DNA of 64,000 nt from Kordiimonas laminariae (lineage in GTDB: Bacteria; Pseudomonadota; Alphaproteobacteria; Sphingomonadales; Kordiimonadaceae), in assembly GCF_023008165.1 (NCBI RefSeq), contig NZ_JAKQZA010000005.1:310001-374000 (forward strand). The letters run 5' to 3'. Every line of letters begins with the position of its first letter. Position 1 is the first letter of the stretch. A model generated the notes under the pieces. The model was not told the origin of the DNA. It saw only the letters and a list, made by a program, of their open reading frames with translations, and did no database searches. The translations under genes were made by a program, and so were the position numbers. Of this stretch, positions 2,895-8,070 are shown in pieces.

Positions 2895-4310
2895 ATGAGA
2901 AATTATGTAATACGTTTGATGGTGGTGGCTGTAGGCACTTCAATTATGGTTGGGCAAGCAGCTAAGGCTGAAGTTGCTATTCCTGAGTGCTCCTCCTTAG
3001 TGGAATGGGCGAATATCTCTATGGAGGTTGATAAGAACTTTAGCGGAAGAAGTTTTCAGCCTAAGCCCTTTAGTGGCAAGTTCCTGCTCTGGGGTTTGCG
3101 TGATGAGCAGCTAAAGCCTTATTTTGGAGAAACGCTGGATCAGTGGAAGGCTGAAGATTTCACAGCCTTAAAAGCTAAGTTTCAAGAATGTAGAAATACA
3201 AACCGGGCTGACTTAAAAGAGGCTTTCCAAGAATCTCGAGAAACCGGGGATCGCAGCCGCCATAATGAATTGCGTAATCAACACCGAGTGTTTGACCAAT
3301 ATGTTAACCGAAAGCTAAGCGCTGCACGCCGGGATTCATACGGTAATACATTTGAAGGTATATTGGCTCACCAGCAGGATGTTTATACCAAGCACTATGA
3401 AACATTGGCGCGCTTCAAAACAATTAATGCTGAAATTGGTGAGATGGGGCCATCTATCCAGAATATTGAACGCATTGATTATATTCTGGAACATGAAAAC
3501 TTTGAATATCTGGACCCAAACCTTTTAAGCGAAGTAAAAGCCCAGCTGCCGGAAATTAAAGTGTCTCTTATGGATAAGCTTCTGGATAAAAAGCTTGAGG
3601 AATTTAATAGTCTGGAAAAGACATATACCAACATCGCAGTGATGAAGAAATCGTATGATGAATTCAAAAGTGCCAATTATCGCCGCAAAAGCAGCAAATG
3701 GCGCGCCTTTGATGATGGATTTAAGCTTGCCTATAATGCGCATGTGACCGCGAGCTTGCCCAGCTATCAGGAGCATATTAAAAGCCTGCCGACAGAACGT
3801 GATAGCGTGCGTGCAATCGACAATGAGCTGAGTAAAATGTTCCCGCGCCGTGACAGGGATAAGCCACGAGATTACATTATGTTTTTCGCCGCGGCCAATG
3901 ACCAGAAAGAACGATTGAAGGCCAGAATTAAGAAGAAAGAATGCGAAGAAACCAAAGCAACGCTTGGACTGGATGAAGATGCAGCTGAGATGATTGTGCT
4001 AGGCCCTAAAGGCCCCATCCCGCTGGATAAATTTATGTGCCGCATTAACCCAAAACATTTCAAGGTTATGAAATGGGAGGAACCAGGTTTCTTCGGGTCT
4101 GAATATACTTTTTCTTTTTATGATCCGTTTGGCGGAGAAGCGCAGATTGTTTTTGAAGAGCAGGAACTTCTGGACGGCAGAGAAGCTCTTGTTGGGATTG
4201 AGATGACGGCAAATGGCAAGGAAAAGGAACTTACTCAGGCAGAGTGGCGAGATATAGCCAAGTGGCTCAATAAAATTGATGAAGAGTTCCACACACTTTG
4301 GGGTGGATAG
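2895..4310 (+). CDS. Exported protein of unknown function, helix-rich
   Basis: I do not recognise the family. The 471-residue product starts with a clear Sec signal peptide (hydrophobic core about 7-20, likely cut after QAAKA, residue 25). The mature part is rich in Lys, Glu and Arg, with long predicted helices through about residues 100-310 and no membrane segment, so it is probably periplasmic or secreted. Cysteines are sparse (near the mature N-terminus, 100, 350 and 375). The ATG at 2895 follows a GTGAGGAG-like ribosome site. It is transcribed divergently from the winged-helix/kinase gene across 143 bp and ends at a strong terminator. The neighbour suggests it could be controlled by that regulator; nothing in the sequence indicates an enzymatic activity. 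Confidence 0.75.
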   Translation: MRNYVIRLMVVAVGTSIMVGQAAKAEVAIPECSSLVEWANISMEVDKNFSGRSFQPKPFSGKFLLWGLRDEQLKPYFGETLDQWKAEDFTALKAKFQECRNTNRADLKEAFQESRETGDRSRHNELRNQHRVFDQYVNRKLSAARRDSYGNTFEGILAHQQDVYTKHYETLARFKTINAEIGEMGPSIQNIERIDYILEHENFEYLDPNLLSEVKAQLPEIKVSLMDKLLDKKLEEFNSLEKTYTNIAVMKKSYDEFKSANYRRKSSKWRAFDDGFKLAYNAHVTASLPSYQEHIKSLPTERDSVRAIDNELSKMFPRRDRDKPRDYIMFFAAANDQKERLKARIKKKECEETKATLGLDEDAAEMIVLGPKGPIPLDKFMCRINPKHFKVMKWEEPGFFGSEYTFSFYDPFGGEAQIVFEEQELLDGREALVGIEMTANGKEKELTQAEWRDIAKWLNKIDEEFHTLWGG

Positions 4311-4340
4311 TTTCCTCACATAAACTGGCACCTAAAGGAA

Positions 4341-4370
4341 AAGCCGCTCACTGTTGTGGGCGGCTTTTTT
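4341..4370. terminator. Rho-independent terminator between convergent genes
   Basis: An 11-bp stem (AAGCCGCTCAC / GTGGGCGGCTT, one G-T pair) with loop TGTT is followed by TTTTTT on the plus strand. It lies 30 bp after the exported-protein gene. The minus strand has a shorter T run, so it may also stop infC transcripts arriving from the other side. Confidence 0.9.
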
Positions 4371-4395
4371 CATATCTTTTATAAAGAACGGGTCT

Positions 4396-4932
4396 TTATT
4401 TCGGTGCAATCACCATAATCATCTGGCGGCCTTCAAGTTTAGGACGCGCTTCGATTTTTGCATGCTCTTCCATCTCGTCTGCAACGCGGCTAAGAACATC
4501 CATACCTAGGTCCTGGTGAGCCATCTCACGGCCACGGAAACGGATAGTAAGCTTCACTTTGTCACCGTTTTCGATGAACTGGTGAACTTTCTTAAGTTTC
4601 ACATTATAGTCGTGAACATCAATGCCCGGACGCATCTTAATTTCTTTAACGTCCTGCGTTTTCTGCTTTTTACGGGCAAGGTTGGCTTTTTTCTGCTGTT
4701 CGTATTTGAACTTACCGAAATCGAGAACCTTACATACAGGGGGTTCTGCGTTTGGCGAGATTTCAACGAGATCTAGCCCGCTGTCTCGCGCGATATCCAT
4801 CGCCTTCGCTGTCGTTACAACGCCGTGGTTTTCGCCTTCAGCACCAATCAAGCGAACTTCTTTGGAAGTGATCGCTCTGTTAACGCGCGGGCCGCTCTGT
4901 TTAGGTGGTCCCGCAAAATTCCCCTTACGTAT
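4396..4932 (-). CDS. infC: Translation initiation factor IF-3, non-canonical AUA start
   Basis: IF-3 binds the 30S subunit, blocks premature 50S joining and proofreads the start codon. The product has the family hallmarks [52 protein letters not shown] and the C-terminal [12 protein letters not shown]. No ATG, GTG or TTG lies between the upstream in-frame TAG and a TTG at 4851 that sits inside the conserved N-domain (after the conserved [12 protein letters not shown]). An ATA at 4930-4932 has an ideal AGGAGA ribosome site six bases upstream and gives a 178-residue protein of normal length beginning [13 protein letters not shown]-3 is known for rare start codons (AUU in E. coli) used for autoregulation, so AUA is the likely start. 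It lies 133 bp downstream of thrS and is probably cotranscribed with it. Confidence 0.93.
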
Positions 4933-4944
4933 GTCAAGTCTCCT
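4930..4944 (-). promoter_or_regulatory. infC: infC ribosome binding site with AUA start codon
   Basis: On the minus strand AGGAGA (4939-4944), then a six-base spacer, then ATA (4930-4932). The strong Shine-Dalgarno with a poor start codon is the arrangement expected for IF-3 autoregulation, where the factor rejects its own start. Confidence 0.75.
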
Positions 4945-5015
4945 ATGACTGTTAATATCTATATGCGGATGATGAAACCCCGGGTTCGGGCGCTATCCGC
5001 GTACGCCCAGTATAA

Positions 5016-5054
5016 CCGCTGCATTTTCAGTTGCAAATGCTGAAAACACAGCGG
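5016..5054. other. Long imperfect hairpin in the thrS-infC gap
   Basis: CCGCTG-ca-TTTTCAG, a nine-base loop, then CTGAAAA-ca-CAGCGG: 13 paired bases interrupted by one 2x2 mismatch. It lies 11 bases after the thrS stop on the minus strand and has no U-tract, so it is not a classical terminator. It may be an RNA processing or stabilising element, or a partial terminator, between thrS and infC. Confidence 0.55.
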
Positions 5055-5065
5055 AGATATTCTCT

Positions 5066-7054
5066 TTATGCAGTGCCGTTTGGCATTGTTGCTTCTTTCG
5101 TGAAAGCTTCAAGTGCTTCAGTGAACGGGATAACTGTTTGGTCTTTGGAACCAATACGGCGAATGCTGACAGTACCCTGTTCTGCTTCCCGCTTACCCAC
5201 TACAATAATTGCTGGTACTTTCTTCACGCTATGCTCGCGAACTTTATAGTTGATCTTCTCATTGCGAAGGTCGAGTTCAACACGCATACCTGCGGCCTGC
5301 ATCTTATCAAACACTTCTTGTGCATACTCACCCGCTTCAGAAGTAATTGGAGCAACAACTGCCTGCACAGGCGCGAGCCACATTGGAACTTTACCAGCAT
5401 AGTGCTCAATCATAATGCCGAGGAAGCGTTCAAGTGTACCAAGAACCGCGCGGTGCAGCATAATTGGTGTGTGTTTGTTACCGTCTTCACCAATATAAGT
5501 TGCGCCAAGATTCTTCGCCATGTTCGGGTCTAGCTGCAGCGTACCACACTGCCATGTACGGCCGATGGCGTCATTCAGGTGAAACTCAAGCTTAGGGCCA
5601 TAGAAAGCGCCTTCGCCCGGTGCGAAACCATAATCAAGTCCAGTTGCCTTAAGAGCATCCTCAAGGCTTTTCTCTGCGTGATCCCAGGATTCGTCAGTTC
5701 CAGAACGTTTCTCTGGGCGTGTCGCCAACAGAACCCGGAACTCAGGGAAGCCAAGATCACGGTATACGCTCGCAAGCAGTTCACAGAACTTGATAGTTTC
5801 TTCGGTGATTTGGTCTTCACGGCAGAAGATATGACCATCATCCTGTGTCATTTGGCGAACACGCATCAAACCGTGAAGGGCGCCGTGTGCCTCATTCCGG
5901 TGGCAACAGCCGAACTCTGCCATGCGAATAGGCAGGTCGCGGTAGCTTTTGATACCTTGCTTAAACACCTGAACGTGCGCTGGGCAGTTCATCGGCTTTA
6001 GTGCCATGAGTTTCGCGTCTGGCGAGATGATTGGCGCGCCTTCTTCAGTCGACGGAGTTTCATCTGGTACCACGAACATATTTTCGCGGAACTTTGCCCA
6101 GTGACCAGACTGCTCCCAGAATTTACTATCAAGCACCTGAGGTGTTTTTACTTCCTGATAGTCGAATTCCTGAATGCGTGAGCGGATGTATTTTTCCAGC
6201 TGCAGCCACATTGTGTAGCCTTTAGGGTGCCAGAAAACAGAGCCCTGCGCTTCTTCCTGAAGATGGAACAGGTCCATCTCACGGCCAAGCTTACGGTGAT
6301 CACGTTTTTCTGCTTCTTCAAGACGGTGCAGGTATGCTTTCAGTTCTTTTTTATCTGTCCAGCATGTGCCGTAAATGCGTGTCAGCATTTCGTTTTTGCT
6401 GTCACCGCGCCAGTAAGCGCCAGCCACTTTCATCAGTTTGAACGCGTCGCCTAGCTTGCCTGTTGATGGCAGGTGAGGGCCGCGGCAGAGATCAAGCCAT
6501 TCGCCTTGGCGGTAAATCGTTACAACTTCGCCTTCTGGCAGGTCAGTGATGATTTCAGCTTTATAGTGCTCACCAATTTTCTTGAAGTAAGCGATAGCCT
6601 CATCGCGGTCCCATACTTCGCGGATAATTTCTTCATTGCGCTTTACGATTTCGTGCATGCGCTTTTCGATCACTTCAAGGTCATCATCAGAGAATGGCTT
6701 GTCGCGTGCGAAATCATAGAAGAAACCGTTTTCGATAACGGGGCCAATTGTAACCTGTGTACCAGGAAACAGTTCCTGTACTGCTTCAGCCATGATGTGG
6801 GCTGCATCGTGGCGCAGCAGTTCAAGGCCGTCTTCATCCTTTTTGGTAACGATGGCTACATCGCTGTCCTCTTCAATCTCGCGGGACAGATCCCAAATGT
6901 CGCCGTTTACTTTAATTGCAAGCGCAGCTTTAAGAAGACCAGGGCCAATATCAGCGGCCAAGGTCGTGCCCGTCACCGGCTTATCAAACGTGCGCACGCT
7001 GCCATCTGGCAGGCGCAGGTTGACCGGATTATTGCTACTCACTTGATCGCTCAT
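5066..7054 (-). CDS. thrS: Threonyl-tRNA synthetase
   Basis: Charges tRNA-Thr with threonine in the cytoplasm. The 662-residue product is full length for the bacterial enzyme. In order: an N-terminal TGS domain (to about 65), the second additional (editing) domain with [11 protein letters not shown] and [10 protein letters not shown], the class II catalytic core with [15 protein letters not shown] and the zinc-site [10 protein letters not shown], and a C-terminal anticodon-binding domain ([27 protein letters not shown]). The ATG at 7054 follows an AGGA about eight bases upstream. infC follows on the same strand, a very common bacterial pairing. No T-box or other riboswitch is recognisable in the 263-bp upstream gap. 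Confidence 0.98.
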
Positions 7055-7317
7055 TTTTAAGGTCCTAATTATTTAAAATACAAGGGAGCTTTGCAGGTAG
7101 CCTTCGTAAGGCCCTGAGTCAAGCTACAGCATAGCTTTCATGCGGCTTTTTCTGAAAAAACATCAAAATTTACAGGCAGGTGCAGCAACTCTGCATCTGG
7201 GATGGTCGTTCAGGGTAAATACGAGCCCACAAAATCTTGTTATGGCAGGTTGTAGTGGGCCTTTTCCCCTGATAGGTTTGCGCATCAATTATTCCTAGGG
7301 CCAACGGGAGCAACTTT

Positions 7318-8070
7318 ATGAATTCGCGGCAGTATCTGGAAACCGCTTACGGTGCTAAAATCGCTTATCACAAGCATGAAGGTAAAGGGCCGGGTGTTGT
7401 GTTTCTTGGTGGTTTTATGAGCGATATGGAAGGCTCGAAAGCTTTGGCACTGGAAGCATACTGTAAACGTGTTGGGCGCGCGTTCGTCAGGTTCGATTAT
7501 CAGGGCCACGGCCAATCCTCTGGCACATTTGCGGAAGGTACTATTGGTATCTGGGCGCGTGATGCGATGACAGTGCTGGATACACTCACCGCAGGGCCGC
7601 AAATTCTTGTGGGTTCCTCAATGGGTGGCTGGATTTCCATGCTGGTTTCCAAGGCGCGCCCGGGCCGTGTTAAAGGGTTCGTAGGTATCGCTGCAGCGCC
7701 TGATTTCACTGTGCGTATGTGGAATGAAGATTTTGGCGATGCGGAGCGTGAGGAAATCCTAGCGAAAGGCGCATTTATGCGGCCGTGCGATTACGGGGAT
7801 GAACCCTACACCATTACTAAAGCATTGATTGAAGATGGCTGGAATAACCGTGTTATCGCCGGACCCTTGAAAATGGATATGCCAGTACGGCTTATCCAAG
7901 GGACAGAGGACGCTGACGTACCGTGGCAAACAGCGCAGGTGATTGCCGATAAACTTACATCAGATGATGTGGAGATTATCTTGGTGCCGGGTGGTGACCA
8001 CAGGCTTTCTTCTGATCAGGATCTGAAGCGCCTTATCCGTATTGTCGATGGTTTGGCGGCAGAAATCTGA
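7318..8070 (+). CDS. Alpha/beta hydrolase (ABHD10-like thioesterase family)
   Basis: A 250-residue alpha/beta-hydrolase. The nucleophile elbow GSSMGG puts Ser101 in place, the acid is Asp198 or Asp200 (GTEDADVP) and the base is His228 (GGDHRLS). The DYQGHGQSSG segment and overall length resemble mitochondrial ABHD10 and its alphaproteobacterial relatives, which hydrolyse thioesters or acyl-glucuronides; the substrate here is not shown by the sequence. No signal peptide, so cytoplasmic. ATG 7318 follows ACGGGAGCA. Its TGA overlaps the ATG of nth by one base (TGATG), so the two genes are translationally coupled. Confidence 0.88.
   Translation: MNSRQYLETAYGAKIAYHKHEGKGPGVVFLGGFMSDMEGSKALALEAYCKRVGRAFVRFDYQGHGQSSGTFAEGTIGIWARDAMTVLDTLTAGPQILVGSSMGGWISMLVSKARPGRVKGFVGIAAAPDFTVRMWNEDFGDAEREEILAKGAFMRPCDYGDEPYTITKALIEDGWNNRVIAGPLKMDMPVRLIQGTEDADVPWQTAQVIADKLTSDDVEIILVPGGDHRLSSDQDLKRLIRIVDGLAAEI

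Follow-up and report, generated by a model that had tools for sequence, protein, structure and literature searches.

A putative AUA-started infC gene in Kordiimonas laminariae and the start codons of its relatives

The window analyzed here, that is the whole stretch of 64,000 nucleotides from the alphaproteobacterium Kordiimonas laminariae, carries on its reverse strand a gene whose product scores 244.4 bits against the infC profile TIGR00168 (cut-off 60), which identifies it as translation initiation factor IF-3. The match of this product to the IF3_N profile, well over the cut-off of 26.9, is the only such match in the genome. The features of the locus are the following:

5066 to 7054, reverse strand: thrS, threonine--tRNA ligase (TIGR00418, 685.3 bits), directly upstream of infC with 133 bases between them
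4993 to 4995, reverse strand: TAG, the upstream in-frame stop that bounds the infC open frame, which is open from 4992
4939 to 4944, reverse strand: Shine-Dalgarno sequence AGGAGA, separated from the ATA by six bases (CTTGAC)
4930 to 4932, reverse strand: ATA, the proposed start codon, read directly; ATA is found at the equivalent place in 50/56 loci of the order sample by the start rule described below
4396 to 4932, reverse strand: infC, translation initiation factor IF-3, 178 codons if read from the AUA to the TAA
4681 to 4884, reverse strand: match to the Pfam domain IF3_N (PF05198), 110.3 bits (G000:C23:314681-314884)
4849 to 4851, reverse strand: TTG (codon 28), the earliest in-frame triplet among the canonical starts; within the N-domain it occupies an aliphatic position that is conserved
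4396 to 4398, reverse strand: TAA, the stop codon of infC, read directly
4337 to 4370, no strand assigned (listed on the forward strand by the scan): terminator-like hairpin in the interval that separates infC from the frame 2895-4310 (forward strand)

The frame at 2895-4310 has 471 codons and is convergent with infC; it gave no match in the NCBIfam profile search, and the beginning of its product resembles, by eye, that of a secreted protein. Terminator-like and promoter-like sites in 4200-7500 are not more numerous than in shuffled sequences. With regard to an RNA leader, Rfam yielded a single sub-threshold match, to RcsR1 at 4293-4370, over the terminator-like hairpin, which was rejected (20.8 bits for a gathering score of 60). 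Folding of 4880-5000 gave a z value of -1.53.

Direct reading of the frame from the TAG at 4995-4993 to the TTG at 4851 found no ATG, GTG or TTG, as the sequence-only reading had claimed. Of the triplets ATG, GTG, TTG, CTG, ATA, ATC and ATT, those present in frame from 4992 to 4849 are ATA 4962, ATT 4956, ATA 4932, ATC 4872 and TTG 4851. The span 4930-4944 that this earlier reading had singled out corresponds exactly to the Shine-Dalgarno sequence, the spacer and the ATA. Its further claim, that an ATA correctly spaced from AGGAGA gives a full-length IF-3, is strongly supported by the comparison with relatives, in which the ATA is kept. The product has 178 residues, compared to 180 in the solved chain 8jsg_A, whose letters agree with those of E. 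coli infC over the stretch common to both. The locus combines what characterizes an infC with an AUH start, i.e. the lack of a usable ATG, GTG or TTG, a normally spaced Shine-Dalgarno sequence and a codon conserved in relatives. From this combination, infC of the Kordiimonas genome is almost certainly translated from the AUA at 4932-4930.

A finder of open reading frames restricted to NTG starts lists the gene from the TTG at 4851, the first canonical triplet in frame, and a start at this place would yield an IF-3 of 151 residues without the first 27. This alternative is highly improbable. Since the TTG sits inside the IF3_N match (4884-4681), such a start would remove the first part of the domain. 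Furthermore, the residues ahead of it are conserved among relatives, and its position is occupied by TTG in 9/56 loci of the order (CTG in 26 and another codon in 21), 12/104 of the class and 5/80 of a set of named matches.

Start codons of relatives were called by a rule that considers any in-frame NTG or ATH located 17-36 codons before the conserved V of VRLI and preceded by a Shine-Dalgarno match of at least 4 nt at an aligned spacing of 3-10, the best match being retained. It agreed with the annotation in the five annotated records (5/5). The first run of the rule took codons too distant from the domain, such as an ATC at 52 codons in L011; the range of 17-36 codons was chosen after this first result had been seen, and the rule was then rerun. 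With the narrower range, ATA gained one locus in the order (from 49 to 50, n = 56) and two in the class (from 55 to 57, n = 104), while L073 and L108, for which an ATC and an ATT far upstream had been called, were left without any start. Since the rule considers NTG and ATH codons only, a codon-blind version was also run, in which any in-frame codon 17-36 codons before the V is accepted provided that it follows a Shine-Dalgarno match of at least 5 nt at a spacing of 5-8.

The order sample includes 56 loci (56 of the 59 searched genomes gave a match), among which the window itself (L001) and L023, which encodes an identical IF-3, are both counted. The class sample includes 104 loci from other orders, drawn from 286 genomes with a match (five of these being the window's genome or members of its order): the 30 best-scoring loci and 74 others, mainly one per family label among the matches listed. 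The named set consists of the best 80 matches, taken by similarity, whose titles are mostly those of Rhodobacteraceae and kin, and shares at least five loci (L161-L164 and L188) with the order sample. Finally, 43 loci from non-alphaproteobacterial Pseudomonadota were chosen like the class sample from 120 genomes including alphaproteobacteria, the alphaproteobacterial loci L245, L248 and L255 being left out of the count. Given the overlap between these sets and the relatedness of the genomes, the numbers given below are counts and not independent events. Two of the best 80 matches, L165 (CP051228.1, Mesoflavibacter) and L217 (JAHVJD010000001.1, Nocardioides marinus), with 64% identity each, seem to come from mislabelled or mixed assemblies. 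In the class search, the genome G326 gave two IF3_N matches, due to a second IF-3 gene or to an assembly effect.

The rule called ATA for 50 of the 56 loci of the order, besides ATC for five and no start for one. In the class (n = 104), it called ATA in 57 loci, ATC in 23, ATT in six, ATG in five, TTG in three and no start in 10. The named set (n = 80) displays ATA in 70, ATC in nine and ATT in one. Outside Alphaproteobacteria (n = 43), ATC (n = 17) outnumbers ATA (n = 8) and ATT (n = 8), with one GTG and nine loci without any call. In the order and class samples taken together (n = 160), the rule found no start in 11 loci and an NTG start in eight. None of the 50 loci of the order called ATA lacks a Shine-Dalgarno match of 4 nt or more at a spacing of 5-8. 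The codon-blind version, among loci having a site, retrieved ATA in 47/52 cases in the order, 44/73 in the class, 66/75 in the named set and 6/26 outside Alphaproteobacteria. In 57 long open frames picked mechanically from the window, about 1.3% of the codons are ATA; compared to this background, the 47/52 of the order indicate that ATA occurs at the well-placed site more often than by chance. It is thus the ATA codon itself that is conserved, both in the order and in the class, and, since it predominates across the order, class and named loci, AUA is, judging from these genomes, the usual infC start in the Kordiimonas lineage. The comparison of start codons and ribosome binding sites across alphaproteobacteria, which the sequence-only reading had proposed as a check, therefore favors the ATA, but it also contradicts, for this lineage, the view of AUA as an unusual choice.

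The ATA loci are often devoid of any other candidate: 25/50 in the order, 33/57 in the class and 34/70 in the named set carry no NTG at all from the upstream stop to 17 codons before the V. The same earlier reading had considered that homologues with an ATG at another position giving an equal length would speak against the ATA. This is only partly the case: three loci of the order, L005 (K. marina), L008 and L011, do carry an ATG two codons 5′ of the ATA. This ATG lies one or two bases behind AGGAG and, since it nearly touches the Shine-Dalgarno sequence, it is probably not used. Two loci with a called or distant ATG should also be mentioned: L117, called ATG by the rule, also carries an ATA with GGAG at a spacing of 6, and in L012 an ATG precedes the V by 36 codons.

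As the infC frame of the window is open from 4992, it also includes ATA 4962 and ATT 4956, and translation could in principle begin further upstream, at one of these two codons. The rule placed no Shine-Dalgarno match for either of them and called 4932 for the window. Moreover, the codons preceding the ATA vary among relatives instead of being conserved, and a stop codon lies immediately 5′ of the ATA in eight loci (four from the order and four from the class), which makes an upstream start even less credible than one at TTG 4851. Five of these eight loci (L048, L082, L101, L145 and L158) are also without NTG downstream within the range, and three of the four from the order (L025, L028 and L042) have an ATG five codons downstream of the ATA.

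The codon itself is uncommon as an ordinary isoleucine codon inside infC, where ATA accounts for 32/547 isoleucine codons in the order, 82/979 in the class and 13/726 in the named set; the conserved ATA therefore looks like a start and not like one isoleucine codon among others. The argument drawn from this rarity is weaker for the Kordiimonas genome alone, because its own long frames use ATA more (235 of 1133 isoleucine codons in those of the window, about 21%).

The base at position -1 of ATA-started infC is C in 43/50 loci of the order, 40/57 of the class and 59/70 of the named set. A special infC context was nevertheless dropped, since rplT, an ATG-started control, shares this C in 14/19 relatives of the order (the search expression missed nine of the 28 rplT loci, L294-L321); for a second control, rpsB, the expression recovered only three of 30 loci. 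Among the NTG starts of the window with a strong Shine-Dalgarno sequence (n = 15), C was found once at this position, 42 of the 57 frames giving no such start, and the tree offered too few independent pairs for a paired test to decide. In the Kordiimonas group, genes of this kind may commonly have this C. In non-alphaproteobacterial infC starting with ATT, the base at -1 is T in 7/8 loci.

The best known infC gene is that of E. coli. Work attributed to Butler et al. (1986, 1987) and to Sacerdot et al. (1996) reportedly established that it starts at AUU and that IF3 represses its own synthesis through this codon; changing this AUU to AUG is said, again by Butler et al., to abolish the control by IF3. 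In the E. coli record used as a control, infC is annotated at ATT in the gene order thrS-infC-rpmI. The Kordiimonas gene is similar in that it encodes IF-3 behind thrS, with a Shine-Dalgarno sequence and a probable start whose third base mismatches the initiator tRNA. It differs by its AUA in place of AUU, and its autorepression is predicted from comparison with other bacteria. It differs also by its surroundings: rplT, the last member of the E. coli operon thrS-infC-rpmI-rplT, is located at C23:383081-383401, about 68 kb from infC (approximately C23:314396-314932), so that an operon of the E. coli type is absent.

Non-AUG starts of infC are reported in several other bacteria: AUU in E. coli and B. 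subtilis (PMC1805508), ATT in Listeria (PMC13068326), ATT in Xanthomonas by proteogenomics (PMC5559785) and ATC in Streptomyces (PMC5472188). The last genus resembles Kordiimonas by the non-canonical starts of genes under IF3 repression, infC (ATC) and sigR (GTC), but these actinobacteria use other start codons. The closest case is that of S. aureus, whose infC start was mapped at AUA by Ribo-Ret, the authors calling auto-regulation likely (PMC13009471). It shares with the Kordiimonas case the gene, the AUA codon and the suggested auto-regulation; however, S. aureus belongs to a distant phylum and its start was demonstrated experimentally, whereas that of Kordiimonas rests on comparison.

Within the class, infC is already annotated at ATA in Falsirhodobacter algicola and in two Azospirillum records, and at ATT on pSymB of Sinorhizobium meliloti. 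These genes, three out of four with ATA, have a Shine-Dalgarno spacing comparable to that of Kordiimonas, but they come from other orders according to their taxonomy lines and are copies on records filed as plasmids. For a Pseudorhodobacter turbinis record without annotation, the rule also gives ATA. Given the S. aureus mapping and these existing alphaproteobacterial annotations, neither a non-AUG infC start nor the AUA start itself is new. The idea that infC would by default be misannotated from 4851 is fair in general, since misannotated infC starts are reported in most Streptomyces species (PMC5472188) and in Xanthomonas (PMC5559785); it does not apply to the four annotated alphaproteobacterial relatives, none of which starts at an internal NTG. 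The infC genes on records filed as plasmids include L289 (NZ_CP033323.1), L290 (NC_013860.1) and L287 (NZ_CP047290.1), from Azospirillum and Falsirhodobacter; in L289, rpsU adjoins infC.

How such a start would work can be proposed from what is known elsewhere. According to a review (PMC4611024), bacteria do initiate at AUU, AUC and AUA, and IF3 discriminates against these three triplets but not against those that end in G. When pairings were surveyed in vitro, IF3 was found to exclude those with a weak third base pair, including AUU with the CAU anticodon (PMC10158994); AUA with CAU is apparently among the omitted combinations, and this survey would therefore offer no direct number for AUA. 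In a Listeria reporter, the ranking was ATG > ATA > ATT (PMC13068326). In Kordiimonas, the Shine-Dalgarno sequence would position the 30S subunit over the AUA, where the initiator tRNA would pair with the first and second bases of the codon but fail to pair properly at the third. IF3, the product of infC, would destabilize initiation complexes at codons such as AUA and would therefore limit its own production, plentiful IF3 leading to less synthesis and scarce IF3 to more. We infer from other bacteria that initiation occurs with fMet, at low efficiency and within such a feedback loop. Autorepression of the AUA-started gene by IF3 is, by this analogy, quite likely, and an AUA-started infC with an IF3 feedback loop appears as the best explanation overall, with a probability of roughly 85%.

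AUA could also be the true start without any important feedback, merely holding IF3 synthesis low or persisting as a harmless relic. The documented feedback is that of the E. coli AUU start, and in Alphaproteobacteria it would be expected by analogy. A non-canonical start can also be a brake in itself: for three other genes of S. aureus, reporters with such a start reached about 10% of the expression obtained with AUG in poor medium (PMC13009471). However, a relic should drift to ATG, which is one transition away from ATA, and the rule called ATG in 0/56 loci of the order and 5/104 of the class, the starts moving mostly among ATA, ATC and ATT, the trio named by a review as rejected by IF3. A start devoid of feedback is thus unlikely, and the self-limiting AUA-started infC is preferred.

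On a FastTree tree of 159 loci (L023 left out), at least 32 changes were counted among ATA, ATC, ATT and NTG, a rough number. One may speculate, with some doubt, that Alphaproteobacteria settled on AUA, and not on the AUU of E. coli, as a tuned IF3-sensitive start of infC. The idea that this start shifts repeatedly among AUA, AUC and AUU while being nearly barred from AUG is likewise tentative; since the codon moves within this trio and hardly ever to AUG, a single transition away, its third base may set the IF3 level of each lineage. A search of open-access titles and abstract openings retrieved no description of AUA as the usual alphaproteobacterial infC start, which is weak evidence of absence as subscription papers are mostly outside its range. 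The predominance of AUA at the infC starts of alphaproteobacterial loci, with changes to AUC or AUU but seldom to AUG, may be less known than the non-AUG start itself.

For the Kordiimonas genome, the AUA start is an annotation point and not a new mechanism. Its wide distribution in relatives fits the long-known self-limitation of IF3 production, and the natural variation among AUA, AUC and AUU would provide a comparative set for studying how the third base of the start codon sets IF3 levels.
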